This document shows, in pieces, positions 50 through 18,767 of a stretch of 64,000 nt of DNA (the first letter of the stretch is position 1; each line of letters begins with the position of its first letter). The position numbers were made by a program, and so were the translations under genes. The notes under the pieces were generated by a model. The model was not told the origin of the DNA. It saw only the letters and a program-made list of their open reading frames with translations, and searched no databases. The DNA comes from Flavobacteriaceae bacterium GSB9. GTDB lineage: Bacteria; Bacteroidota; Bacteroidia; Flavobacteriales; Flavobacteriaceae. The stretch spans positions 2,604,001 through 2,668,000 of the forward strand of contig CP062007.1 of assembly GCA_022749295.1 (NCBI GenBank), given 5' to 3'.

Positions 50-538
50 ATGAATCAAGCAGAAAAAAGAAAGTGCGAACTTGTTGAAAAACTGGGGATT
101 TTCTTGGAGAAAAAAGAACAAATGGCACCTGTTGCCGCTCGAATTTTTTCTTACATCATCCTAACAGGAAAACAAGGGACTACCTTTGAGGATTTGGTGT
201 CTAACCTTTGCGCCAGTAAAAGCACTATTTCAACGCACTTAAATCATTTACAGGATTTAAAAAAACTGAGCTATTTTACTAAAACAGGCGATAGAAAAAA
301 GTATTTCATCATCAATAGCGATACGATGCTTCAGGGTATTAGTGGCATGGTAGAAGAGTGGGAAAGTGAAAAAGAACTTCATTTAGAAATAAAATCATTC
401 AAAGAAGAAGCAAATAAAACCTTAGAAGAAGAAAATAAATTTGAACTCGATTTTCATGATAGTTTCATTGATTTCTTGGATGGGGCTATTACATCAATAA
501 ACAAATTGAAAGAAACTATAATAAATAATAAACACTAA
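50..538 (+). CDS. GbsR/MarR-type winged-helix transcriptional regulator
   Basis: Probable local repressor of the efflux operon that follows. The 162-residue protein has a winged helix-turn-helix at about residues 30-95, with a recognition helix around SKSTISTHLNHL and a wing ending RKKYFII. The C-terminal part (about 105-160) is a charged, Glu/Lys-rich helix likely used for dimerisation. This layout fits the GbsR/MarR-like family found ahead of RND operons in Flavobacteriia. The ATG is preceded by a -7 box 20 bases upstream, and the next gene starts 11 bases after the stop, so it is the first gene of the operon. The ligand is unknown. Confidence 0.85.
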   Translation: MNQAEKRKCELVEKLGIFLEKKEQMAPVAARIFSYIILTGKQGTTFEDLVSNLCASKSTISTHLNHLQDLKKLSYFTKTGDRKKYFIINSDTMLQGISGMVEEWESEKELHLEIKSFKEEANKTLEEENKFELDFHDSFIDFLDGAITSINKLKETIINNKH

Positions 539-549
539 CCAATTTTAAA

Positions 550-1674
550 ATGAAACTATCAAACTTATATAGTTCTGCGGTACTTGTTTTGCTTGCTGTA
601 ATATTTACAAGTTGTAAACAAGATAAACAGACACAACAACAGCAACAGGCATTGCCCTTAGCGGTATCGGCTGTTCCGCAGAAAACAGTATCGGCTTATA
701 CCACTTACCCAACTACTATTGAAGGCACGATAAACAGTGAAGTTCGTTCCAAAGTTTCGGGTTACATTCAAAAAGTACTGGTAGATGAAGGTGAGAAAGT
801 GCGAAAAGGCCAGCCTTTATTCAAACTCGAAACACAATCGCTAAGTCAAGATGCAGAAGCGGCAAAAGCACGTGTTAATGTGGCTCAGGTTGAGGTCAAT
901 AAACTTAAACCCTTGGTTGAAAAAAATATTATCAGCGAAGTACAGTTAGAGACAGCCAAAGCCAATTTAGCACAGGCTAAAAGTACATACAAAAGTGTGG
1001 TTGCAAATATTGGTTATGCTACTGTAACGAGTCCGGTAGATGGTTTTGTTGGTGCTATTCCATACCGCGAAGGCTCGTTGGTGAGTGCTACAAGTGTAAA
1101 ACCGTTAACTACTGTTGCAAGTATTGAGCGGGTGTTTGCTTATTTCTCGATGAACGAAACCGAATATTTAGATTTCCTTCAACAAACAGGAGGTAAAACA
1201 CTACAGGAAAAAATTGAAAACTTCCCAAAGGTAGCATTGACTTTGGCCAACGGACAGCCCTATGAACAAAAAGGAACTATTAAAACCGTTACCGGACAAA
1301 TTGATCCAAACACAGGAACGGTGAGTTTCAGAGCGGTTTTTGATAACCCCAATATGTTATTGACCAATGGGAATAGCGGAACGGTAAAAATTCCGAAAAC
1401 CTACGAAAATGCATTGGTGGTGCCGCAATCGGCCACTTATGAGCAGCAAGGCCAAACCTATGTTTATACCGTTGGCGAGGGAAACAAAGCAACATCAACC
1501 TTAATATCCGTAAAAGATAAAAATGATGTGCTTTATATCTTAGATTCTGGTGTAAAAGCTGGCGATTTAATAGTAGTAAAGGGTATTGGAAAGTTAAGAA
1601 ATGGAACACTAATTCAACCACAAAAAGTGGCCTTCGATAGTGTTGCTAAGCCTATAAAGTCGCTATTTCAATAA
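550..1674 (+). CDS. RND efflux periplasmic adaptor (membrane fusion protein), lipoprotein
   Basis: Links the inner-membrane pump to the outer-membrane channel of a tripartite multidrug efflux system. It begins with a lipoprotein signal peptide; Cys22 in FTSCKQD is the lipidation site. A Gln-rich linker follows (about 25-33), then a barrel-sandwich hybrid domain, an alpha-helical hairpin (about 95-150, Ala/Val/Lys-rich repeats with VEKNIISEVQLETAKANLAQAK), the second biotinyl-lipoyl half and the beta-barrel domain. At 374 residues it has the usual length for AcrA/MexA-like adaptors. It lies between the regulator and the RND pump in one operon (11- and 21-base gaps). Confidence 0.93.
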   Translation: MKLSNLYSSAVLVLLAVIFTSCKQDKQTQQQQQALPLAVSAVPQKTVSAYTTYPTTIEGTINSEVRSKVSGYIQKVLVDEGEKVRKGQPLFKLETQSLSQDAEAAKARVNVAQVEVNKLKPLVEKNIISEVQLETAKANLAQAKSTYKSVVANIGYATVTSPVDGFVGAIPYREGSLVSATSVKPLTTVASIERVFAYFSMNETEYLDFLQQTGGKTLQEKIENFPKVALTLANGQPYEQKGTIKTVTGQIDPNTGTVSFRAVFDNPNMLLTNGNSGTVKIPKTYENALVVPQSATYEQQGQTYVYTVGEGNKATSTLISVKDKNDVLYILDSGVKAGDLIVVKGIGKLRNGTLIQPQKVAFDSVAKPIKSLFQ

Positions 1675-1695
1675 TATTTTTAGAGCAATAAAACT

Positions 1696-4600
1696 ATGTT
1701 AAAAACATTTATAGAAAGACCGGTACTATCTACCGTTATTTCCATTATTATAGTCATTTTGGGTATTTTGGGGTATTCAGCGTTGCCTGTTGAGCAGTAC
1801 CCAGATATTGCGCCGCCAACCATTCAAGTAAATGCCGCTTATCCTGGGGCGAGTGCCGAAACCATTTTAGAAAGTGTTATCATTCCTATTGAGGAGCAGA
1901 TTAACGGTGTTGAGGGAATGACCTATATGACGTCTTCTGCAGCCAATAACGGCACGGCAAACATTACCGTATTTTTTAATCAAGAAATGGATCCGGATAT
2001 TGCTGCGGTGAACGTACAAAATCGCGTGGCTCGTGCCAATCCATTGTTGCCTCAAGAGGTAGTCCAAACAGGAGTTACTACGCAAAAGCAGCAAACGTCG
2101 GCGTTGATGTTCTTATCGGTGTATTCTGAAAGTGAAGATTATGATGCTACATTTGTTCAGAACTATTTAAAAATCAACGTGATTCCTGCTCTTCAAAGGG
2201 TTAATGGCGTGGGTAATGTTAATGTGTTTTCCAACCAAGATTATGCGATGCGTATTTGGTTAAAACCTGAAAAATTAGCGGCTTATAAATTGGTGCCTTC
2301 AGAGGTGACAGCAGCATTAAGAGAGCAAAGTTTAGAGGCCTCTGCGGGTTCTTTGGGACAAAACGACGGACAAGCTTTTTCGTATAACATAAAATATAGC
2401 GGACGTTTTAAAACCGAAAAACAATACGAGGATATCATTATAAAAGCCTTGGATAACGGAGAATATTTGCGTTTAAAAGATGTGGCTAAAATTGAATTGG
2501 ATGCCCAAGGTTACGATTCGTATGGGTTTACAGAAGGTCACCCCAGTGTAAATATGGGTATCTACCAAACGGCAGGTTCCAATGCACAGGAAATTATAAA
2601 GAATATTAAATCGGAATTAAACCGTTTATCGCAAGATTTTCCAGAGGGCATTGAATACGAAATCAATTACGATACCAACAATTTCCTTACGGCGTCAATG
2701 AACAAAGTGCGAAACACATTAGTAGAAGCCTTCTTGTTGGTGTTTTTAGTGGTTTTCATTTTCCTTCAAGATTTCCGATCCACTTTAATTCCGGCCATTG
2801 CGGTTCCGGTAGCCATTGTGGGTACCTTTTTCTTCTTGAATTTATTTGGGTATTCGGTTAACCTATTAACGCTTTTTGCCCTAGTATTGGCCATTGGTAT
2901 TGTAGTTGATGATGCTATTGTAGTGGTAGAAGCGGTGCATGCCAAAATCGACGAAGGTGCTAAAAGTGCTAAAACTGCTACTATGGATGCCATGCACGAA
3001 ATTTCGGGAGCTATTATCTCGATTACCTTGGTAATGGCAGCCGTTTTTATTCCTGTTACGTTTGTTCAAGGGCCAACGGGAGTATTTTACGAGCAATTTG
3101 GTGTAACACTAATTGTTGCCATTTTAATTTCGGCGGTTAACGCCTTAACTTTGAGTCCGGCACTTTGTGCATTGTTTTTAAAAGGTCATGATGAGCACGA
3201 ACACAGTAATAAAAATTTCTTGCAGAAATTTTACGATAAATTCAACGCTGGTTTTAATGCTACGACAGAGCGTTACGGAAAATCATTAGCCTTTCTGTAC
3301 AAAAACAAATGGATAACCGGTGTTTTATTGGTGCTTTCCGGTGTTGGTATTTGGTGGGCAGCTAGTACTACGCCAACAGGATTTGTGCCTAACGAGGATC
3401 GTGGAATCATTTTTATGAACGTGGAATTACCCGCTGGTGCTTCTATGGACAGAACCAATTTGGTAACCCAAGAATTATATGAAAAAGCAAGTCAAATTCC
3501 AGGGGTTAGAGGTGTAACCGTTATTAATGGTAGAAGTTTGATTAGTGGAGCGGGAACCAATTACGGATTAGGTTTTGTGAAGCTGGATGACTGGAGTGAA
3601 AGGGAAACCGATGATTTGTCATCAAATGCGATTGTCGGCAAACTTTTTGGTATTGCGGCTACAATCCCCGATGCCAATATTATTTTCTTCGCGCCGCCAA
3701 GTATTCCAGGGTTTGGACTTTCAGGAGGTTTTGAGGTGAATTTGATGGATAAATCTGGCGGAAGCTTTGAAGATTTAGATGCCACCACCCAACAGTTTAT
3801 TGGCAATTTGATGAAACATCCTGAAATTCAGTATGGGCAGTCGTCATTCAACACTAAATACCCACAGTACGAGTTAGACATTGATGTGCCGTTAGCCAAG
3901 AAATACGGGGTTTCGGTGAGCAGTATTTTTTCAACCTTACAGGGTTACATTGGTGGCGTTTATGCTGCAGATTTTGCGCGCTTCGGAAAACAGTATCGTG
4001 TTTACGTTCAAGCGCAACCAGAAGATAGAAGTGATGCCAATTCATTAAACCAATTATACATAAAAACAGGTAGCGGCGACATGGCACCAATCACACAGTT
4101 TGTAGATTTAAAACGTGTTTATGGTCCCCAATCGGTTACGCGCTTCAACTTGTATAATTCAGCAAAAATAAGTGGTGCATCCAACCCAGGGTTTAGTACG
4201 GGAGATGCTATTGCCATTGTTCAGGAAGAAATTAAAAACCTACCCAGCAACTACGATGTGGCCTATTCGGGGCTATCGCGAGAAGAGGTTAACGCCGGAA
4301 ACCAAACGGTTGTAATTTTCTTATTGGTAATTGTATTTGTGTATTTCTTGTTGGCAGCGCAATACGAGAGTTATTTGTTGCCCTTGGCCGTGATATTTTC
4401 ATTGCCGTTAGGCGTGTTTGGTGCATTCTTTTCTACCAAAATAATGGGCTTAGAGAATAATATATATTTCCAAATCGCTCTAATTATGTTGGTGGGACTA
4501 TTGGCTAAAAATGCCATTCTTATTGTGGAATTTGCCATTCAAAGACGACGACGTGGAGAAGGACTGGTTGATGCTGCTATCCACGGTGCCAAGGCACGTT

Positions 4601-4833
4601 TACGACCTATTTTAATGACCTCTTTCGCCTTTATTTTAGGGTTAATGCCCTTGGTTTTGGCTAAAGGTGTTGGTGCCGAAGGAAATAATTCCATTGGTAC
4701 GGGAGCTGCCGGAGGCATGTTGATTGGAACCCTTCTAGGGGTGTTCGTCATTCCTATACTGTTTATTCTTTTCCAATGGTTACAGGAAAAAGTAACGAGT
4801 AAACCCGTTGTTGTTGAAACTAAAGACGCTTAA
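1696..4833 (+). CDS. RND multidrug efflux pump, inner-membrane permease (HAE1 family)
   Basis: Proton-driven exporter of hydrophobic or amphiphilic compounds, working with the adaptor before it and the channel after it. The 1045 residues match AcrB/MexB-type pumps. The N-terminus (FIERPVLSTVISIIIVILG) is the typical TM1. The proton-relay aspartates of TM4 appear in GIVVDDAIVVVEAV near residue 405, and two large periplasmic loops separate TM1/TM2 and TM7/TM8 (TPTGFVPNEDRG opens the second). The C-terminal half repeats the TM pattern, with KNAILIVEFA. The stop is followed after two bases by the outer-membrane factor gene, indicating translational coupling. Substrates cannot be predicted from sequence. 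Confidence 0.95.
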   Translation: MLKTFIERPVLSTVISIIIVILGILGYSALPVEQYPDIAPPTIQVNAAYPGASAETILESVIIPIEEQINGVEGMTYMTSSAANNGTANITVFFNQEMDPDIAAVNVQNRVARANPLLPQEVVQTGVTTQKQQTSALMFLSVYSESEDYDATFVQNYLKINVIPALQRVNGVGNVNVFSNQDYAMRIWLKPEKLAAYKLVPSEVTAALREQSLEASAGSLGQNDGQAFSYNIKYSGRFKTEKQYEDIIIKALDNGEYLRLKDVAKIELDAQGYDSYGFTEGHPSVNMGIYQTAGSNAQEIIKNIKSELNRLSQDFPEGIEYEINYDTNNFLTASMNKVRNTLVEAFLLVFLVVFIFLQDFRSTLIPAIAVPVAIVGTFFFLNLFGYSVNLLTLFALVLAIGIVVDDAIVVVEAVHAKIDEGAKSAKTATMDAMHEISGAIISITLVMAAVFIPVTFVQGPTGVFYEQFGVTLIVAILISAVNALTLSPALCALFLKGHDEHEHSNKNFLQKFYDKFNAGFNATTERYGKSLAFLYKNKWITGVLLVLSGVGIWWAASTTPTGFVPNEDRGIIFMNVELPAGASMDRTNLVTQELYEKASQIPGVRGVTVINGRSLISGAGTNYGLGFVKLDDWSERETDDLSSNAIVGKLFGIAATIPDANIIFFAPPSIPGFGLSGGFEVNLMDKSGGSFEDLDATTQQFIGNLMKHPEIQYGQSSFNTKYPQYELDIDVPLAKKYGVSVSSIFSTLQGYIGGVYAADFARFGKQYRVYVQAQPEDRSDANSLNQLYIKTGSGDMAPITQFVDLKRVYGPQSVTRFNLYNSAKISGASNPGFSTGDAIAIVQEEIKNLPSNYDVAYSGLSREEVNAGNQTVVIFLLVIVFVYFLLAAQYESYLLPLAVIFSLPLGVFGAFFSTKIMGLENNIYFQIALIMLVGLLAKNAILIVEFAIQRRRRGEGLVDAAIHGAKARLRPILMTSFAFILGLMPLVLAKGVGAEGNNSIGTGAAGGMLIGTLLGVFVIPILFILFQWLQEKVTSKPVVVETKDA

Positions 4834-4835
4834 TT

Positions 4836-6236
4836 ATGAATTCAATTATAAATAAAACATTAATAGTTGTGGTAATGGCTACCACTTTGCAAAGCTGTTT
4901 TGTGGCCAAGGAATATACTCGTCCCGAATTAAAAGAAACAGCACATTTATATCGTACCGATAATTTGCCACAGGATAGTTTGTCATTGGCCGATGTGTCG
5001 TGGAAAGATCTGTTTACCGATAATTATTTGAAGCAATACATAGCGGAAGGCCTTCAAAATAATATCGATATCCGTGTGGCATTACAGCAAATGGCTGCGG
5101 CCGAATCGTATATGAAACAAGGAAAGGCAGGCTACTTGCCAAGTCTGGGCGCAAATGCCCAAATGACACATCAAGAGTTGTCTAAAAACAGTCAGTTTGG
5201 GGCGTTTTTCAGCGGAAGCTTACAACAATACGAGCTTACAGGAAACCTGTCTTGGGAAGCCGATATTTGGGGTAAAATACGAAGTAACAAACGCGCCGGC
5301 GAAGCCAGTTATTTACAGAGTGTAGCCGCACATCAAGCAGTGAAAACACAATTGGTTTCAGCTATTGCTTCAACTTATTATCAGTTGGTGGCTTTAGATG
5401 CGCAATTGGAAATCACTAAAAAAACCATTGCGACTAGAGATAGTAGTGTTTATACTATAAAAGAATTGAAAAATGCAGGTCAGGTTACGCAGGTGGCGGT
5501 CGATCAAAATATAGCGCAGTTTTACAATGCCAAAGCCTTAAAGGTGGAATTAGAAGCTGCTATTTTTAAAACCGAAAATACCATGAGTTTGCTATTGGGT
5601 AGGCCTGCTGTTGTAATAGAGCGAAGCACTTTGGGTGACCAAAATATGGGAGCCGACATAAAAACGGGTGTTCCTGCAACCTTATTACGTAACCGTCCTG
5701 ATATTATAGCTGCCGAATATGTATTAATCAGTGCCTTTGAAATGACCAACGTAGCACGAAGTCAATTTTATCCGTCGTTAACCTTAACGGCTACTGGCGG
5801 TTTTCAGAGTTTGGAATTTGATAAATTGTTTAATGCCAATTCATTGTTTGCAAATTTAGTAGGTGGTTTGGCACAGCCTATTTTTAACAAACGTGCTGTA
5901 AAAACGCAACACGAAGTAGCTATAGCACAACAAGAACAGGCGCTTTTAAATTTTAAGAAAACCTTGTTAACGGCTGGTAATGAGGTGAGCAATGCCTTGT
6001 TCGATTATAATGCCGAAACCGAAAAGTTTGAGTACCGTGAAAAAGAAGTTGAAGCCTTGCGAAATGCAGAGGCTAATTCAGAAGAGTTGCTTAAAAACGG
6101 ATATGCCAACTACTTAGATTTGTTAACGGCCAGACAAAGCGCATTAAGCGCCGAGTTGAATATGATTGACAATAAGCTAAATCAACTGTTAAGTGTCGTG
6201 AATTTATATGAAGCTCTTGGCGGTGGTTGGAAATAA
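4836..6236 (+). CDS. TolC/OprM-type outer-membrane efflux lipoprotein
   Basis: Outer-membrane exit channel of the RND system. The protein (466 residues) starts with a lipoprotein signal (Cys21 in LQSCFVAKEY). It then has two outer-membrane efflux protein repeats; long Ala/Gln-rich helices that build the periplasmic tunnel are clear at about 70-110, 160-230, 290-330 and 370-460. The conserved RPDI motif (NRPDIIAAEYVL) and PSLTLTATGGF segment are typical of NodT/OprM-like factors. It ends the operon: only 2 bases separate it from the pump gene. Confidence 0.93.
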   Translation: MNSIINKTLIVVVMATTLQSCFVAKEYTRPELKETAHLYRTDNLPQDSLSLADVSWKDLFTDNYLKQYIAEGLQNNIDIRVALQQMAAAESYMKQGKAGYLPSLGANAQMTHQELSKNSQFGAFFSGSLQQYELTGNLSWEADIWGKIRSNKRAGEASYLQSVAAHQAVKTQLVSAIASTYYQLVALDAQLEITKKTIATRDSSVYTIKELKNAGQVTQVAVDQNIAQFYNAKALKVELEAAIFKTENTMSLLLGRPAVVIERSTLGDQNMGADIKTGVPATLLRNRPDIIAAEYVLISAFEMTNVARSQFYPSLTLTATGGFQSLEFDKLFNANSLFANLVGGLAQPIFNKRAVKTQHEVAIAQQEQALLNFKKTLLTAGNEVSNALFDYNAETEKFEYREKEVEALRNAEANSEELLKNGYANYLDLLTARQSALSAELNMIDNKLNQLLSVVNLYEALGGGWK

Positions 6237-6271
6237 AATTCAAGTATAAAAAGCATAATTTAAGTTTAAAT

Positions 6272-7087
6272 ATGGAAGCTCTATTAGTAGCCACGAATTT
6301 TTCAAAAACATCTAATAATGCAGTAATGTACTCGGCCGCATTAGCACGGTTATTTAATGCGAAGTTAGTGCTTTTCAACGCTTTCAGGTTGCCCTTGCAT
6401 GCATCGAATACTTGGCTAACGGTTGAAGCCATGGAGAAGATGATTGAAAAAACCAACAACAGATTAAGGAAGCAGGCTTTAAAGCTGTCGGAAGAATTTG
6501 GTATAAGCGTGGAGTACGAATGCCGATATGTGGACTTAGAGTGAGAAATTGAAACGTTAATGCAGGTTCATAACTCAAGGTTTTTAGTTATAGGGATGTC
6601 GGCAAAGTCTATGGAGCAAAATCTGCTAGGAAACCCAACAACCACATTAATTAGCATGAAAAAGTTTCCGGTGTTGGCTGTTCCGTTAAACGCAAAATTT
6701 TCGGGTATAGATAAAATTCTTTTTGCTTGCGATTTGTTGCAAAGTGTATCGTTAAGGGCACTTGTTAAATTAAAACAATTGGCTTTAAGGCTAAAGTCTG
6801 AAGTTATCGTATTTTATGTTGAGAAAACTGTAGATGAACTCATCGAAAAAGGTAGTTTTTACAAGCCTATCGATGAAGGTCTCGAAAATGTAACCCATTT
6901 CTATAAAAAAGTAAATTCCGATGCGGTTATAAAGGCCATCGAGCAGGAAGTAGTGGCATCTAATTCAGATTTGCTGGTAATGATTCCCAAGAAATATGGT
7001 TTCTGGGAATCTATATTACATAAGAGCAAAACCAGGGTTATGGCATCGGGGTTGAATATTCCGTTGTTGTCCATTCCAATGCATTAA
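6272..7087 (+). pseudogene. Universal stress protein (two UspA domains) interrupted by one TGA codon
   Basis: A tandem UspA-domain protein of about 271 codons whose reading frame is interrupted once, by TGA at 6542-6544 (codon 91), and is otherwise intact. The first part starts MEALLVATNFSKTSNN, the typical first strand of a UspA domain. After the stop the same frame continues EIETLMQVHNSRFLVIGMS, the expected next part of domain one, then a second UspA domain up to 7087. No frameshift is needed to join the halves. The gene follows the efflux operon by 35 bases. The intact state of both halves points to a very recent mutation or a sequence error. The second half could still be translated from ATG 6560 but would lack the N-terminal nucleotide-binding strand. 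An intact relative lies at 11579-12403. Confidence 0.85.
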
Positions 7088-7159
7088 GAAAAGTATAGCA
7101 ATAAGTTGTAAACGGTATTGTAAATAAAAGTTTAGTGTTAGTAGTTTAGTTAGTTTTTT

Positions 7160-7750
7160 ATGATTGGCAAAGAACAAATAATTGCTTTCGCAGCCGAGAA
7201 ATTCACCCAATTTGGCAGCAAGCGGTTTACAGTAGATGAACTGGCTGCCTTATTGGGTGTTTCTAAAAAAACAATCTACAAGTATTTTTCCAGTAAAGAA
7301 GATTTGGTAACGGCAAGTATTCAGTATTTAATTGACGAGTACAACCAAACCTTAGAGCTCTTAGTTGAGCCCGAAAACGACGCGATAACCTGTATTATTT
7401 TAATGTACAAAGAGGCTTTTGAACGTCTTAAGTATTTTAAGCCTTCTTTTATTTTTGGACTCAAAAAATACTACCCTGCAGCGAATAAAGTATTTGACGA
7501 TTTTAGGAACAACTTTGTAAAAGTTAGGGTGTTCAACCTTTTAAAAACTGCTCAAGAAAATAGAGTTTTGGTAGATGATGTGAATTTAAAATTGTTCTGC
7601 GATTTGTTTTTCAATAGGTTTGAAGAAATTGCTTTTATGCACAACAATCTTTTTGAGGTCTATTCCAACAAAGTTTTACTTAACCATTTTATAGTTTATA
7701 GTTTGCGGGGCATAACCAAGACAGATTATAACAATCCTTATTTTAGATAG
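7160..7750 (+). CDS. TetR/AcrR-family transcriptional regulator
   Basis: DNA-binding repressor of 196 residues. The N-terminal HTH (about residues 10-55) is canonical: FTVDELAALLGVSKKTIYKYFSSKEDLV, with recognition helix KKTIYKYF. The all-helical C-terminal domain (60-190) is the variable ligand-binding and dimerisation part, rich in Phe and Tyr. No regulated gene can be named. The efflux operon upstream has its own regulator, but TetR proteins often control RND pumps as well, so this is a candidate second input. The next gene downstream is separated by a small promoter/terminator unit. Confidence 0.88.
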   Translation: MIGKEQIIAFAAEKFTQFGSKRFTVDELAALLGVSKKTIYKYFSSKEDLVTASIQYLIDEYNQTLELLVEPENDAITCIILMYKEAFERLKYFKPSFIFGLKKYYPAANKVFDDFRNNFVKVRVFNLLKTAQENRVLVDDVNLKLFCDLFFNRFEEIAFMHNNLFEVYSNKVLLNHFIVYSLRGITKTDYNNPYFR

Positions 7751-7755
7751 TTTTC

Positions 7756-7869
7756 TATTTTTGTGCCATGAAACGAGCATTAAGAAATTTAAACACCGCT
7801 TCACAAAAGGAAATGTTTAAATTTTTTAATGAGAGAACGAAGTGGTTACACACGTTCTCAATTTTTTAA
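7756..7869 (+). ncRNA. Short transcription unit with a tiny ORF: candidate small RNA or leaderless peptide
   Basis: A -7 box TATTTTTG lies at 7756-7763, and an ATG at 7768 opens a 33-codon ORF (MKRALRNLNTASQKEMFKFF...) that stops at 7869. The 3' end is a terminator-like hairpin: GAGAACG (7833-7839) pairs with CGTTCTC (7853-7859), with inner GTG/CAC pairs and a T6 run at 7862-7867. A transcript from about 7770 would be roughly 100 nt. It could be a small RNA, a leaderless micropeptide, or just the terminator of the tetR gene with a chance promoter. I do not recognise the peptide. Confidence 0.3.
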
Positions 7870-7906
7870 TTAATTTATTGTAGGGCAATTACAAAAATTT
7901 AAACGT

Positions 7907-8302
7907 GTGAAAAAAGATATCGAAATACCAAAAGTTAAAGATGTTCATGTTGCCGTTGTGCAAGAAAAACATTTAGAATATAAAACCTTAGATTGGAATG
8001 CCTATATTATCAATAATTCCGATAAAGATTTAGAAACGGTCCTTATCGTGTCTCAGGGTTATAACGATGCCAAAATGACGCCGCCTATGCGACATACCAT
8101 TGCAAAATTGCCCGCCCGCAGTTATGCCAAAATAGAATACATGCAAGAAAAGGTTTTAGAACTGAACAACACATTTAAGGTTACTTTTTTTGAAGGTAGC
8201 CAAATGTTCGATAAAACCTATTTGTTCAGGAAAAACACAATAAACCTTAAAGCCTTGCAGGTCTTACCTTTAATGCAGTTAAAGGGAGTGTTGGTTAAAT
8301 AG
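7907..8302 (+). CDS. Conserved hypothetical protein, full-length copy
   Basis: A 131-residue protein of unknown function starting at a GTG (MKKDIEIPKVKDVHVAVVQE). It has no signal peptide or membrane segment and looks like an all-beta cytoplasmic domain: alternating strands with conserved WNAYIINN, VLIVSQGY, MRHTIAKLPARSYAKIE and FRKNTINLKALQ. A shortened second copy sits at 11312-11569. The last 79 bases plus the downstream piece are part of a direct repeat of about 145 bp. I have an unverified recollection that relatives of this protein are found beside pheS in other Flavobacteriaceae; a pheS remnant lies directly downstream here. Confidence 0.75.
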   Translation: MKKDIEIPKVKDVHVAVVQEKHLEYKTLDWNAYIINNSDKDLETVLIVSQGYNDAKMTPPMRHTIAKLPARSYAKIEYMQEKVLELNNTFKVTFFEGSQMFDKTYLFRKNTINLKALQVLPLMQLKGVLVK

Positions 8303-8367
8303 TCAGCTTTTAAATCTTAAAAGTAATTACGGGCCTTTGGTATGGTTTACTAAATCTTCGCTAATCC
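8224..8367. repeat. Direct repeat copy A (3' end of small gene plus 3' end of usp)
   Basis: This block matches 11491-11637 over about 145 bp with roughly 85-90% identity by eye. It covers the last codons of the small conserved gene, the intergenic space, and the antisense 3' end of a universal stress protein gene. The first 38 bases are identical in the two copies. The copies are in the same orientation about 3.27 kb apart. Confidence 0.85.
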
Positions 8368-8368
8368 T
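8312..8368 (-). pseudogene. Remnant of a universal stress protein gene (last ~19 codons)
   Basis: Read on the minus strand this piece encodes the end of a UspA protein, close to ISEDLVNHTKGPVITFKI, against ISEDLVNHAKRPVITFKI in the intact copy at 11579-12403. The similarity stops at about 8368, where the sequence changes abruptly into the pheS remnant. It is a 3' scrap left by duplication or deletion and cannot be functional. Confidence 0.75.
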
Positions 8369-8373
8369 GCCTA

Positions 8374-8704
8374 GCGCGCAATATGCAGGATACGTTTTTT
8401 ATTCAAACCAATCCTGATATTTTATTGCGTACACACACCAGTTTGGTAAAGGTGTGTATTGGGGCTTAGAAACCAAAATTGATTACCGAATTAACAAAGG
8501 TACTGGTTGGCTAGAAATTATGGCTGCGGTTTGGTAGATCCTAATGTTTTAGAAAATTGTGGAATATACTCTAAAGAATATTCTGGATTTGCCTTCAGGA
8601 AGGGTATTGATAGAATAGCTATGTTATTGCATTAAATTGGCGATATCCGTTTGTTGAGTGAAAACGATTTGCGGTTCTTAGAGTAGTTTAAGAGTACCTT
8701 TTAG
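8374..8704 (+). pseudogene. pheS: Decayed 3' part of phenylalanyl-tRNA synthetase alpha subunit
   Basis: The stretch between the small gene and the lipoproteins contains an eroded pheS fragment. From 8374 it reads ARNMQDTFFIQTNPDILLRTHTS, the class II synthetase motif region of PheS. The middle of the catalytic domain is then missing (roughly 80 codons by comparison with a normal PheS). It resumes as [21 protein letters not shown], then, after a one- or two-base frameshift, [31 protein letters not shown], a TAA, IGDIRLLSENDLRFLE, a TAG and FKSTF followed by the final stop at 8702-8704. With a 5' truncation, internal deletion, frameshift and two stop codons it is dead; a working pheS must be elsewhere. 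Confidence 0.88.
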
Positions 8705-8718
8705 TATTTATAACCTTT

Positions 8719-9945
8719 TTAATTTTTAATACATCGAATACAGCGGTATAATTGATCTTGATTACTAATTACAATTGAAGCTTCGTGATAAGCAATTGAA
8801 AAATAACCTGTGATATCGTTAGATTTATCAACAAACCATAAACTCGATATCCAACCAAGACCTCCAAAATCATCAGATGCTGTTCCATATATTCCAGATG
8901 GCACTGCAGAAAAACCACTTTCATTATCTGCAAAATTGATAATACCTGATACATTAGGGTTTACTTTCCAATGCATGTTACCTCTTTCGCTTAACTTTAT
9001 TGCTGCTTTATGGCCTCCCCCTAAATAATTTACTAAAGTAGTCCATTCATCTTTATTAGGTAAATGCCAGCCTTGAGGGCATATTTCATTTACATCTTTC
9101 ACTGTAAAATAATTATAAAGTCTGCCATATGGCTTTAAGTTTTCATTTTTTAACTCATAGACAATAGATGCACCTATAGTTTGTTTCGAATTAACCGGTT
9201 TTGAAAGGGTTACAATAGGATTGCCATTATTGTATCTTGTTGTTCTTAAGTTTTCTGCCATCCAAGTTTGAGTGCCTATTTGTGTGGTTTTGTATGTGTT
9301 TCCATCTATATCAATTACCTGTGAGTAATTTAATTTTGGGTTAAACATAATTTGACTAAACGCACAGCCATATAAATTCACCTCTTCACCAATAGGGGTA
9401 TTTGGGCATAAATCGTAATTGTCAAACACACCATCTTGGTCACTATCTTTTTGATAAAGAGCACAACCATTAGTGTCGACCTCAAAACCAGTTGCTGTAA
9501 AAGGACATAAGTCTATGGCATCCCAAATGTTATCTCCATCACTATCTATTTGCATTGCAGAACAGCCATTTTTATTAACTGTTGCGTTGCTTTCTGTATT
9601 TGGACAAGTATCAATATCATTTGGAATACCATCGTTATCATCGTCTTTCTTTACAAAAACTGCCGTTATAGATTTGTCATTATCCATAACTGTGTTTATT
9701 ATTGAAATTGTTCCTGTAGCATCCCCAATCCAATTAGAGAATTTATAATGTTTTGACGCCTCAATAGTTATTTGTACGGTTTCACCACTATTATAATTGG
9801 AAGATTCAGGAAATATTGAACCTGCTTCAGGTGGAACAACTTTAGTGGTTAAATTAAATTTAACAGGGTCTGAATCATTCGAACATCCCATAATAAACAA
9901 ATATACTATCAAATAAAAATATAGTGGTTTTAGTTTGTGCTTCAT
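8719..9945 (-). CDS. Surface lipoprotein with thrombospondin type 3 repeats and FISUMP domain
   Basis: Predicted outer-membrane or surface-exposed lipoprotein, 408 residues. The signal peptide ends at a lipobox with Cys21 (IMGCSND). Next comes an InlB-type bacterial repeat (about 30-95: YNSGETVQITIEASKHYKFSNW), then three Ca-binding thrombospondin type 3 repeats (about 98-195, pattern DxDxDGxxDxxDxCP). The C-terminal domain (about 200-408) has YKTTQIGTQTWMAENLRTT and CPQGWHLPNKDEW, typical of the Fibrobacter succinogenes major paralogous domain. It is the second gene of a two-gene minus-strand operon, 5 bases behind its paralogue. The exact role is unknown; the FISUMP domain is common in cell-surface lipoproteins of Bacteroidota. 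Confidence 0.85.
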   Translation of the reverse strand: MKHKLKPLYFYLIVYLFIMGCSNDSDPVKFNLTTKVVPPEAGSIFPESSNYNSGETVQITIEASKHYKFSNWIGDATGTISIINTVMDNDKSITAVFVKKDDDNDGIPNDIDTCPNTESNATVNKNGCSAMQIDSDGDNIWDAIDLCPFTATGFEVDTNGCALYQKDSDQDGVFDNYDLCPNTPIGEEVNLYGCAFSQIMFNPKLNYSQVIDIDGNTYKTTQIGTQTWMAENLRTTRYNNGNPIVTLSKPVNSKQTIGASIVYELKNENLKPYGRLYNYFTVKDVNEICPQGWHLPNKDEWTTLVNYLGGGHKAAIKLSERGNMHWKVNPNVSGIINFADNESGFSAVPSGIYGTASDDFGGLGWISSLWFVDKSNDITGYFSIAYHEASIVISNQDQLYRCIRCIKN

Positions 9946-9950
9946 TTATT

Positions 9951-11171
9951 TTAATCTTTTAAACATCTTATACATAGACCATCTTGTTTGTTAGCAAAGG
10001 AACTGAAAGAGGCAGTATGGGAATCATATACCAACCTAAATACTGACATATCTGTATCAGATGTCCACCAGTAACCACCACGGCGCAAGCTATTGAATCC
10101 TTGCACACTCGTTCTATAACCACCGGGTAATGCCGTGAACCCAGAAGAATTAATTGATCCAATATAAATTTGCAAATAGTCTTCCCAGTTTTTATGTCCA
10201 CTTTCCTTCAAATATGTACCTGCATTGTTAACAAAACCTAAATCGTCAACATAGTTTATTAAAATGGTATATTCTGCTTTACTTGGGATATGCCACCCTT
10301 TAGGACAAATGCCTCTTGTGTCTTTTATGACATACCAGTTGTATAAATTACCGTATTTTATAACATTAGTTTCATCATTCATGTAATTACAATATGCAGG
10401 TTTAATAATATTAAACCAATCTACTTGATTCTCTATTTTATCAATTAGTTCTCCATTACTAAATTTAGTAGTTTTTAAGTTTTCAGCCATCCAAGTTTGA
10501 GTGCCTATTTGTATGGTTTTATATTGATTACCATCACTATCAAAAACATATCCGTAAGTTAGATTTAGATTGAAACGTATTTGAGTTGAAGAACAACCTT
10601 GATCATCAGCAATTTCATTAATTGGTGTATTTAAACATTTATCATTAATATCAAATACATTATCTCCATCACTATCTCTTTGATAAATAGAGCATCCATT
10701 AGCATCAACGTCTCTATTTGGATTAGTATTAGGACATATATCCTTGTTGTCATTAACACCATCCCCATCTGAATCTCTTTGTGAGATTGAACACCCATTT
10801 TCGTCTGCAAATTCATTCGTAGGTGTTAAAAGACAATCATCTAAATTATCTGGAACTCCGTCTTGATCCTTATCTACTATTCCAAAAACGGCAGTTATTG
10901 TTGTATTTCCATTAATTGTAAATTTTAGCGGGTTTCTATTTCCTGAGCCATGGTTTGTCCAGCGTAAAAACTCATAATTTGTTGAAGGTGTTGCTTCTAA
11001 TGTTATGAGGTCTCCTTCTTTATATGTATCTAAAACATCAGATAGACTCCCTCCGTTTGTAGGAATAATAGTTGTTGTTAAAGTATACTCTTCAATTGTT
11101 TTTTCATCTTCTGTACATGCTATAGAAAAGTAGAATAGGCACAATAGTAAGAGGTAAAGGTGTTTAAACAT
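9951..11171 (-). CDS. Paralogous surface lipoprotein with thrombospondin type 3 repeats and FISUMP domain
   Basis: First gene of the pair, 406 residues, with the same architecture as its neighbour: lipobox Cys19 (FSIACTED), an InlB-like repeat with the W-T-N-H turn (about 30-95), three thrombospondin type 3 repeats (DKDQDGVPDNLDDC and following, about 98-195) and a FISUMP domain (YKTIQIGTQTWMAENLKTT, CPKGWHIPSKAEY, ending LCIRCLKD). The two proteins align along their whole length but are clearly diverged, so the duplication is old. Both sit between the two copies of the direct repeat, which makes the pair look like inserted cargo. Function unknown; binding of a surface polymer or protein is a reasonable guess only. 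Confidence 0.85.
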   Translation of the reverse strand: MFKHLYLLLLCLFYFSIACTEDEKTIEEYTLTTTIIPTNGGSLSDVLDTYKEGDLITLEATPSTNYEFLRWTNHGSGNRNPLKFTINGNTTITAVFGIVDKDQDGVPDNLDDCLLTPTNEFADENGCSISQRDSDGDGVNDNKDICPNTNPNRDVDANGCSIYQRDSDGDNVFDINDKCLNTPINEIADDQGCSSTQIRFNLNLTYGYVFDSDGNQYKTIQIGTQTWMAENLKTTKFSNGELIDKIENQVDWFNIIKPAYCNYMNDETNVIKYGNLYNWYVIKDTRGICPKGWHIPSKAEYTILINYVDDLGFVNNAGTYLKESGHKNWEDYLQIYIGSINSSGFTALPGGYRTSVQGFNSLRRGGYWWTSDTDMSVFRLVYDSHTASFSSFANKQDGLCIRCLKD

Positions 11172-11311
11172 TAGATATGTAATTTTTATTATTAGAACGA
11201 ATCTAAAATTATTTTATACCAAATCAAATCTGTTTGGTTAAAATAACATGAAATAAAATACTTTTGTATTTCATCAATTTGTATTTAGAATAGTTTGCTA
11301 TTGTTGAGCCT

Positions 11312-11569
11312 ATGAAAAAGGACATAGAAATTACAAGAGTAGAAGGTGTTTACATCGCTGTTATAAACGAGTACAATGATGTTTACAAAACACAAGATTG
11401 GAATGCCTATATTACTAATGATTGGGGAGTTGATTTAGATGTTCTTTTAATCGTAACCAACGGGTACTCTGGCAATAAAATAACTTCTACGTTCAGGAAA
11501 AACACAATAAACCTTAAAGCCTTGCAGGCCTTGCCTTTAATGCAGTTAAAGGGAGTGTTGGTTAAATAA
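11312..11569 (+). CDS. Conserved hypothetical protein, internally deleted second copy
   Basis: Paralogue of the gene at 7907-8302, only 85 residues. Residues 1-60 (MKKDIEITRVEGVYIAVINE ... TNGYSGNKIT) align to residues 1-60 of the long copy with moderate divergence. The last 25 residues (FRKNTINLKALQ ... GVLVK) are nearly identical to the long copy, even at DNA level. About 46 residues in between are missing, without loss of frame. The uneven similarity suggests recombination or gene conversion at the 3' end. Whether the protein folds is doubtful; it may be a pseudogene that happens to stay open. Confidence 0.55.
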   Translation: MKKDIEITRVEGVYIAVINEYNDVYKTQDWNAYITNDWGVDLDVLLIVTNGYSGNKITSTFRKNTINLKALQALPLMQLKGVLVK

Positions 11570-11637
11570 TCAACTTTGTTAAATTTTAAAGGTAATCACT
11601 GGGCGTTTGGCGTGGTTTACTAAATCTTCGCTAATGC
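11491..11637. repeat. Direct repeat copy B (3' end of small gene plus 3' end of usp)
   Basis: Second copy of the block at 8224-8367. Here the usp part is continuous with a complete universal stress protein gene, so this copy is probably closer to the original arrangement on that side. Confidence 0.85.
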
Positions 11638-12403
11638 TACCGTTAAAAAAATGTGATATCCCCTGGCGCCCATGTGTGCTCATGCCTATTAAATCGGCCC
11701 CAATAGATTCAGAAAAATTCATGATGCCCTTTTCAACGCTTAAGTCGTTATAAATAGTTTTTGTGTGGTTTACCGAGTCGAGGATATTGGTGTATGGCTT
11801 GAAGCGTTTGTTGGCCTCTTCGGTAGTAATAAACATGTTAGGTGTGTTTACTAAAAGTAAGTGCATCTTTGCTCCAAAGGTTTTGGCAAAGGTGATGGCC
11901 TTTTTAAAAGTATCGATATTTTCATTTTCAAAATCTGATGCAAAAACAAATTGAGCGATATTAAAAATAGGATGCTCTTGTTTTACAACTAAAACAGGAG
12001 TGTCAGATGTTCTTACTACTTTTTCGGTGTTGCTCCCAATTAGCATTTCACGCAAGCCACTAGCGCCATTAGACCCCATAACGATTAAATCAATTTCATG
12101 TTTTTTGCACACATGAAAAATACCTTTAAAAATCTCTTGAAAATCTACAGTTTCATGTACAACAAGGTCGTTTAGGTAATCTTTTTGTTTAAGGGTTTCA
12201 AATTTTTTGTGGGCCAATTTCATAAAAAACATGGCCTCTGGCAAACTACTTTGTGCTCCCATCGGGTCTACTTCCTGTAAAGGGATTTCAAGCATGTGCA
12301 ATAAATAAATTTCACAATCGTGCTTTTTGGCAATTTGGGCTGCCACTTTTAGTGCATTTTCAGCTTGATTGGAAAAATCGGTAGGAACAAGTAATTTTTT
12401 CAT
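11579..12403 (-). CDS. Universal stress protein with two UspA domains
   Basis: Cytoplasmic stress-associated nucleotide-binding protein of 274 residues made of two UspA domains. Domain one (1-145) begins KKLLVPTDFSNQAENALKVA and ends with the phosphate-binding pattern VMGSNGASGLREMLIGSNTEKVVR followed by PVLVVK, the ATP-binding G-x2-G-x9-G(S/T) type motif. Domain two (about 150-274) ends GMSTHGRQGISHFFNGSISEDLVNHAKRPVITF, also with the motif. It is convergent with the small gene at 11312-11569; the stop codons are 9 bases apart. The broken gene at 6272-7087 is a more distant relative. No clear partner genes. Confidence 0.92.
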   Translation of the reverse strand: MKKLLVPTDFSNQAENALKVAAQIAKKHDCEIYLLHMLEIPLQEVDPMGAQSSLPEAMFFMKLAHKKFETLKQKDYLNDLVVHETVDFQEIFKGIFHVCKKHEIDLIVMGSNGASGLREMLIGSNTEKVVRTSDTPVLVVKQEHPIFNIAQFVFASDFENENIDTFKKAITFAKTFGAKMHLLLVNTPNMFITTEEANKRFKPYTNILDSVNHTKTIYNDLSVEKGIMNFSESIGADLIGMSTHGRQGISHFFNGSISEDLVNHAKRPVITFKI

Positions 12404-17832: not shown

Positions 17833-17900
17833 AAAGTTGTGCAAACTGCTAAAAGGCAGTAAATTGTAGTAACCACACTATAATTTATATGCACAACTTT
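17833..17900 (+). promoter_or_regulatory. Inverted repeat that would cover the transposase start codon
   Basis: AAAGTTGTGCA (17833-17843) is the exact complement of TGCACAACTTT (17890-17900), which contains the last two bases of the transposase ATG (17889-17891). An RNA that enters from outside the element contains both arms and would bury the start codon. An RNA started between the arms would not. This is the arrangement known to limit read-through expression in several IS elements such as IS10 and IS50. Confidence 0.6.
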
Positions 17901-18767
17901 CAAACAAATTACGACAAAATACTCAAGGTTTTAAAAGAATTAGATTGTAAAATGGATTATTTACGTCAAATACGCAAACCTAAATTGAGAGATAAAGAAC
18001 TCATTGCTGTAGATTTAACATCAGAGTATATGGGTGTTGATAGTGAATGCCAACTTTTTCGAATTCTACCTGCTGGTTTATCCAGAAAAATAGAGCGCAG
18101 TGTCTACAACAGAAGAAAGCGTAAGTTGTTTCCATTTAGAGAATCACTTCGAAAAGCATTGGTAAAGAAGCTGAATACATCCGAGTATTGTTATATCGTT
18201 GACAGCATGCCTTTAGAGGTCTGTAAATTATCAAGAAGCTCTAGGAGCAAGATATGTAAAGAACAGGGATACAGTCTGCCCGAAAAAGGATACTGTGCGA
18301 GTCAATCAAGCCATTATTATGGGTATAAGCTGCATGCTGTCTGTTCTGCGCAGGGTGTTATAGAAAGCATGGACATTAGTCCTGCTTCTGTACACGATAT
18401 CAACTATTTAAAGGATATAAGGCACCAATTAAGTGATTGTGTATTGCTTGGCGACAGAGGTTATTTGTCAGCGGAACATCAATTAAATTTGTTTGAATCC
18501 CATAATATTAGGCTAGAAACCCCTATGAGAAAAAATCAACATAACTATAGGGAGCAGCCGTATATCTTCAAGAAATCCAGAAAACGTATTGAAACTTTGT
18601 TCTCCCAACTTTGTGACCAATTTATGATTCGAAGGAATTATGCTAAATCTTTTGAGGGGTTCAAAAACCGAATATTGTCTAAGATTACAGCTATGACGGT
18701 CATTCAATATATAAACATGTTTGAATTCAACAGAAATATCAATAACCTAAAAATCAATATTGCCTAA
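17889..18767 (+). CDS. IS982-family transposase
   Basis: DDE-type transposase of 292 residues that moves the surrounding element. The catalytic triad is readable: Asp105 in YIVDSMPLEVC, Asp189 in LLGDRGYLS and Glu235 in RKRIETLFSQL. The spacing and the YGYKLHAVCSAQG strand are typical of IS982. The N-terminal part (1-80) is the helical DNA-binding region. The gene fills almost the entire element, and its TAA overlaps the right inverted repeat. Confidence 0.95.
   Translation: MHNFQTNYDKILKVLKELDCKMDYLRQIRKPKLRDKELIAVDLTSEYMGVDSECQLFRILPAGLSRKIERSVYNRRKRKLFPFRESLRKALVKKLNTSEYCYIVDSMPLEVCKLSRSSRSKICKEQGYSLPEKGYCASQSSHYYGYKLHAVCSAQGVIESMDISPASVHDINYLKDIRHQLSDCVLLGDRGYLSAEHQLNLFESHNIRLETPMRKNQHNYREQPYIFKKSRKRIETLFSQLCDQFMIRRNYAKSFEGFKNRILSKITAMTVIQYINMFEFNRNINNLKINIA

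Follow-up and report, generated by a model that had tools for sequence, protein, structure and literature searches.

A decayed pheS fragment joined to a uspA stump is probably the scar of a head-to-tail tandem duplication of about 9 kb in a Flavobacteriaceae genome

The window analysed here is a stretch of 64,000 nucleotides from the genome of Flavobacteriaceae bacterium GSB9 (G000:C1:2604001-2668000). On the plus strand of this window, positions 8372-8704 hold the remains of a pheS gene, which consist of two stretches when aligned to the intact pheS of the same genome (locus L005). Part A (8372..8452) corresponds to pheS codons 146-172 and part B (8453..8704) to codons 256-340, and the 250 bp of pheS between them are absent. 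One base has been lost near position 8521, resulting in a frameshift in part B, and two early stops, TAA at 8633-8635 and TAG at 8684-8686, are found at pheS codons 317 and 334, in addition to the TAG at 8702-8704 that lies at the position of the native pheS stop. Of the 333 aligned bases, 287 are identical to the intact gene (86%); a DNA search returned the pair with 85% identity (E 2.5e-75) and the profile PF01409 was matched with an E-value of 1.5e-15. These values lie far outside what chance would give, and the fragment is real and dead, as the initial annotation had stated for positions 8374-8704. Its description as the 3´ third of the gene with a large internal deletion, a frameshift and two stops was correct for all three kinds of lesion but too narrow in extent, since codons 146-172 are preserved as well.

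The bases directly left of the remnant (8310-8371) do not belong to pheS but are the truncated 3´ end of a uspA gene. This stump lies on the minus strand, and its homologue is the terminal part of the intact uspA gene (11579..12403), which is located on the same strand (Pfam Usp, E 4.8e-42) and represents the right-hand parent of the join. The join itself was placed at 8349..8371 (no strand assigned), where 18 of 23 positions are shared by uspA and the intact pheS, 11 of them consecutive. When all 801,394 same-strand pairings of 23-bp windows between uspA and pheS are considered, these 23 bp left of the join are the sole pair with at least 18 matches, the left edge of the 23-bp stretch having been chosen after the run of 11 was seen; 13 windows contain an 11-base run, which is exactly the number that one such run produces. 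The remnant bases right after the run are uspA-like, which places the crossover at the right edge of the 23-bp stretch.

The pheS of this genome matches uspA at the join better (18/23) than any other of the 110 pheS rows compared (next best 16, 16 and 15), which represent 109 distinct sequences with one genome entered twice; positions were compared without realignment, and two rows scoring 4/23 at the join are probably out of register. The run of 11 is present only in this pheS and in that of G010 and is absent in G001 and G002, the two genomes of the same genus that were compared. Since its own pheS fits the join best, the parent was probably the pheS of the present lineage, and the pattern at the join suggests that this lineage underwent the duplication after its split from G001 and G002. 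The stump is 85.7% identical to its own uspA (63 bp), 87.5% to that of G001 and 87.1% to that of G002, and over a shorter stretch of 41 bp the values are 87.8%, 85.4% and 85.7%, so that it does not appear clearly nearer to its own uspA than to the other two. Only these three uspA genes were matched by the stump among the best ten matches in the fetched loci.

The functional pheS that had to be sought elsewhere was found close by: it encodes 339 amino acids, occupies positions 6898-7917 of L005 on the same strand as the remnant and ends 83 bases before the window. It is located 8.45 kb upstream of the remnant and is the sole intact pheS found. With an intact gene upstream and a partial copy joined to the uspA stump downstream, the duplication of pheS that the dead fragment had been taken to imply is borne out. 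The genes cvpA and hyp118 precede pheS in 25 of 29 fetched relatives (12/15 and 13/14), which were chosen and not drawn at random, and the same neighbours are present here. Protein identity of PheS to its counterparts in G001 and G002 is 98.8% and 98.5%. At fourfold sites, pheS differs from the two genomes at 64/112 and 71/112 positions, respectively; against G001, the neighbouring genes infB (192/333) and acrB (235/432) have diverged to a similar degree, and the values are lower for nusA (53/133) and rimP (20/48). The last sixth of the working pheS is the part of the gene least similar to G001 and G002 (80.6 and 78.8%). Taken together, the neighbourhood, the protein identity and the fourfold divergence make the working pheS look native and nothing indicates a foreign origin; a foreign working pheS was rejected on these grounds, and the initial suggestion that the remnant could be the displaced original gene is not supported.

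Downstream of the intact pheS follow a pump operon, tetR, hypA1 and the uspA stump, then, starting at the join, the headless pheS, the lipoprotein genes lip1 and lip2, hypA2, the intact uspA, rimP, nusA and infB. G001 and G002 contain a single-copy arrangement, pheS-marR-acrA-acrB-tolC-tetR-hypA-uspA-rimP-nusA-infB, and no second pheS match was found in them. The uspA stump stands back to back with the headless pheS, with the intact pheS upstream and the intact uspA downstream, and this is the order and orientation of a head-to-tail duplication reaching from mid-pheS to the 3´ end of uspA. Three features that mark a tandem duplication scar are seen: two truncated genes are joined in the same orientation, the join has short homology, which is frequent in such scars without being a requirement, and the layout in G001 and G002 is single copy.

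Between pheS and hypA, the first copy of what was probably the duplicated unit contains marR-acrA-acrB-tolC-(broken usp)-tetR on the plus strand (50..7750, assigned by Pfam and NCBIfam), in the order seen in G001 and G002, which have no usp between tolC and tetR. The broken usp is a universal stress protein gene at 6227-7087 that is broken up into two reading frames of 105 and 175 aa; usp pieces were also found as separate matches at the same place between tolC and tetR in G174, which belongs to a different genus. The first copy measures 9038 bp between mid-pheS and the uspA stump, compared with 8591 bp for the corresponding interval of G001 and 8041 bp for that of G002; the second copy is 3270 bp long, 2453 bp of which are taken up by the lipoprotein genes. 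The pump operon of G002 (marR-acrA-acrB-tolC, L037 3605-9825) appears to have been exchanged: its acrB is 75.9% identical to the acrB studied here and 76.7% to that of G001, which are 96.0% identical to each other, while G001 and G002 closely resemble one another in the genes that flank the pump.

Upstream of hypA2, a probable tetR end with the hypA promoter was detected on the plus strand (11281..11306); the match is short, with 24 of 26 bases identical to G174 (E 4.6e-4), and the stretch is identical to G001 at 84% of 31 bases. Among 16 relatives compared, this upstream form of hypA with a tetR end was found in G001, G002 and G174, which all have the end of tetR immediately in front of hypA. 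The region in G189 is partly similar though no tetR hit was obtained there, and in G057 tetR is located further away and the region differs. The probable tetR tail before hypA2 suggests that the unit included tetR and with it the pump operon, and the duplication unit probably held this RND efflux operon. A search of the second copy for pieces of marR, acrA, acrB and tolC yielded none that were convincing, and the best candidate (E 0.14) was rejected. Nothing was found when the hypA-uspA spacer of G001 was considered as a former site of the remnant.

The cargo of the second copy consists of two lipoprotein genes on the minus strand, lip1 with FISUMP and TSP3 domains (8719..9945, Pfam PF09603, E 2e-36) and lip2 with a FISUMP domain (9951..11171, PF09603, E 1.3e-38), which are 39-40% identical to each other. 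For lip2, only short matches were obtained in G001 and G002 and only partial ones in 59 other relatives, the best of which, in G051, covers about 200 aa (43%). A Pfam scan of 10 proteins encoded in the window yielded no integrase, and no tRNA gene that might serve as attachment site is present in the window; the uspA/pheS join accounts better for the pheS repeat than an integrative element would. A transposase gene with a DDE_Tnp_1 domain is located at 17889-18767, downstream of infB.

The hypA genes have a more complex history. hypA1 (7907..8302, plus strand) encodes a conserved pheS-linked protein of 131 aa and is of another allele type than the hypA of the same-genus genomes: the protein is 85-89% identical to those of G062, G189, G174 and G108 and 68% identical to those of G001 and G002. 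hypA2 (11312..11569, plus strand) is 46 codons shorter, with the break at two FRK-coding stretches; its N-terminal part is of the same-genus type and its C-terminal part is nearly identical to hypA1. In the last 26 codons, the two genes share 76 of 78 bases (97%), and both C-termini read MQLKG as in G062, G189, G174 and G108, whereas G001 and G002 have MKVKG. This identity is too high for copies as old as the pheS pair (86%), and in view of it and of the MQLKG ending one has to assume that hypA1 was imported later and that the copies exchanged sequence. The old hypA promoter and start with ATGAAA (about 7730-7773) are followed by a stretch of 133 bp (7774..7906, no strand assigned) and then by hypA1; within the fetched loci, this stretch has no match outside its own genome better than E 0.06. 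In the family, hypA was found in 185 of 249 genomes, with two allele types across genera. No Pfam match was obtained for hypA1 and no NCBIfam match for either copy.

The age and ancestry of the remnant were assessed with the same pheS rows. At 111 third codon positions, the remnant differs from its own pheS at 27 sites, from G191 at 37, from G001 at 38 and from G002 at 44, while its own pheS differs from G001 at 41 and from G002 at 47; over the 109 other rows, the lowest third-position count is 35 to the remnant and 36 to its own pheS. At first and second positions, the remnant and its own pheS differ at 19 of 222 sites, and that pheS and G001 differ at 6. In bootstrap replicates, the own pheS was nearest to the remnant in a fraction of 0.81 and the remnant nearest to the own pheS in 0.86. 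The maximum likelihood tree of 30 pheS sequences and the remnant (a tree of the functional gene had been proposed in the initial annotation) groups the remnant with its own pheS (support 91) and these two with G001 and G002 (97), but the AU test leaves other placements of the remnant unrejected (p 0.26-0.48), with constraints that were loose and two of which gave equal likelihood. The case named there as refuting, a recent copy identical to the functional gene, does not apply literally to a copy that is 86% identical. At 20 sites, the remnant and its own pheS agree against both G001 and G002; the commoner state among 27 other pheS genes at these sites is that of G001 and G002 in 6 cases and that of the remnant and its own pheS in 13, with one tie. 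At 15 sites, the remnant agrees with G001 and G002 against its own pheS. The two classes of sites are interleaved (17 runs, 18.1 expected), and recombination tracts in the working pheS were rejected for this reason.

A comparison of relatives also showed how the boundary between pheS and hypA varies. In 62 of 80 loci, hypA starts at most 300 bp after pheS; in 7 it lies 423 bp to 7.1 kb away, and in 11 it was not found in the flank examined, which extended up to 10 kb and less in some. The pump operon is located between pheS and hypA in 9 of the 29 fetched relatives and after hypA in 3, and cargo at this boundary was seen in several relatives. With the last 100 PheS residues as query, a match was obtained in 390 of 397 family genomes and more than one match in two, the genome studied here (3, the intact gene included) and G099 (2), at a threshold of E 0.001, which very short or decayed remnants would escape. 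Three DNA matches to the remnant were recorded in five genomes (this one, G099, G101, G162 and G163), and a search of the latter four with the whole PheS protein gave a second match in G099 only. In G099, which belongs to another genus, the space between pheS and hypA holds a dead pheS 3´ end (L093 5296-5490) that covers codons 273 or 276 to 339 and contains two stops. It is about 75% identical to the pheS of G099 itself, and the pheS genes of several other genera are similarly close. The 14 kb examined there showed neither a uspA stump nor any other second direct repeat. The dead end in G099 resembles the one described here in its place at the pheS/hypA boundary and differs from it in that ours is joined to a uspA stump; it is probably an independent and older event. 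That cargo such as pump operons and lipoprotein pairs enters repeatedly at this boundary in the family, with some entries duplicating the pheS 3´ end so that the fragments here and in G099 would be products of one mechanism, seems highly improbable to us.

The explanation that we favour, and consider likely, is that the remnant is the scar of a head-to-tail tandem duplication of about 9 kb, which most probably took place in the present lineage. The starting order would have been that of G001 and G002. A DNA exchange between the uspA 3´ end of one copy and the middle of pheS of another, at the 23-bp partial identity, would have duplicated about 9 kb head to tail, leaving a left copy that kept the intact pheS and ended in the uspA stump and a right copy with a headless pheS at its start and the intact uspA at its end. 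The headless pheS would have been useless from the outset and decayed by the deletion, the frameshift and the stops. In the right copy, the pump genes would have been lost, with the two lipoprotein genes now in their place, and hypA would have lost its middle part. Gene order, orientation, the join, the decay and a native working pheS are shown by the data; that the pump belonged to the unit, the date of the duplication and any selection for additional pump copies are inferences.

A shorter unit of an estimated 1.1 kb might instead have been copied while pheS and hypA were still adjacent, with the pump entering the first boundary later and the lipoprotein genes the second. The close spacing of pheS and hypA in most loci (62/80), the cargo at this boundary in several relatives and the absence of detected pump remains in the second copy all agree with such a history. 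However, G001 and G002 carry the pump at the same place, and it is probably older than the split, since acrB and pheS have diverged from G001 to a similar extent at fourfold sites (235/432 and 64/112), yet the remnant groups with its own pheS. The probable tetR tail before hypA2 also speaks against it, and we regard a short unit as unlikely. Somewhat less likely still is an import of DNA from another genus carrying the other type of hypA, integrated by recombination on one side and by short homology on the other and duplicating the ends of pheS and uspA in the process. The resemblance of hypA1 to G062, G189, G174 and G108 (85-89%) rather than to the same-genus genomes (68%), the residues of the other allele type at its C-terminus and the 133-bp stretch before it without an outside match better than E 0.06 would fit, but the pheS remnant is nearest to its own pheS, the uspA stump matches only uspA genes of this genus among its best ten matches and an import can have been a separate event around hypA.

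The displacement reading, in which a foreign pheS or pheS 3´ end replaced the native gene and pushed the remnant aside, would account for the 15 sites that join the remnant with G001 and G002 against the working gene and for the low similarity of the last sixth of that gene, and a displacement of this kind in G099 would agree with the dead pheS end found beside hypA in that genome. It conflicts with the native character of the working pheS in neighbourhood, protein identity and fourfold divergence, with the 20 interleaved sites of the opposite class and with the uspA stump left of the remnant, which would not be expected, and we consider it very improbable.

Tandem duplication of a unit of about 9 kb has parallels in other bacteria. 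In a laboratory mutant of Streptococcus pneumoniae, M184, a semistable 9.2-kb duplication containing the patAB efflux genes has been described in which no obvious repeat was reported at the join (PMC4432121). The present duplication is similar in its size of about 9 kb and, if the pump was part of the unit, in its efflux genes, but it is old and decayed and has partial identity at the join. Amplifications of the efflux gene sdrM in Staphylococcus aureus comprise 7-13 kb, with joins that have microhomology or no homology, and reach 3-10 copies under drug (PMC11721125). They resemble our case in unit size and in the kind of join, whereas they are live amplifications under drug and ours is the fossil of one extra copy. 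Duplications of this kind have been described in strains of laboratory and clinical origin (PMC11721125). In our literature search, no paper was found that combined pheS, pseudogene and partial duplication, and none that combined at least four of the terms tandem duplication, remnant, truncated copy, aminoacyl-tRNA synthetase and bacterial genome.

The tandem duplication that we favour would make this locus a natural example of an approximately 9-kb duplication, probably spanning an efflux operon, whose join is still readable. What appeared to be the replacement of an essential gene is indicated to be only a duplication scar. The dead pheS fragment is most likely a scar of a known kind, reflecting the ordinary wear of the genome and not a sign of gene replacement.
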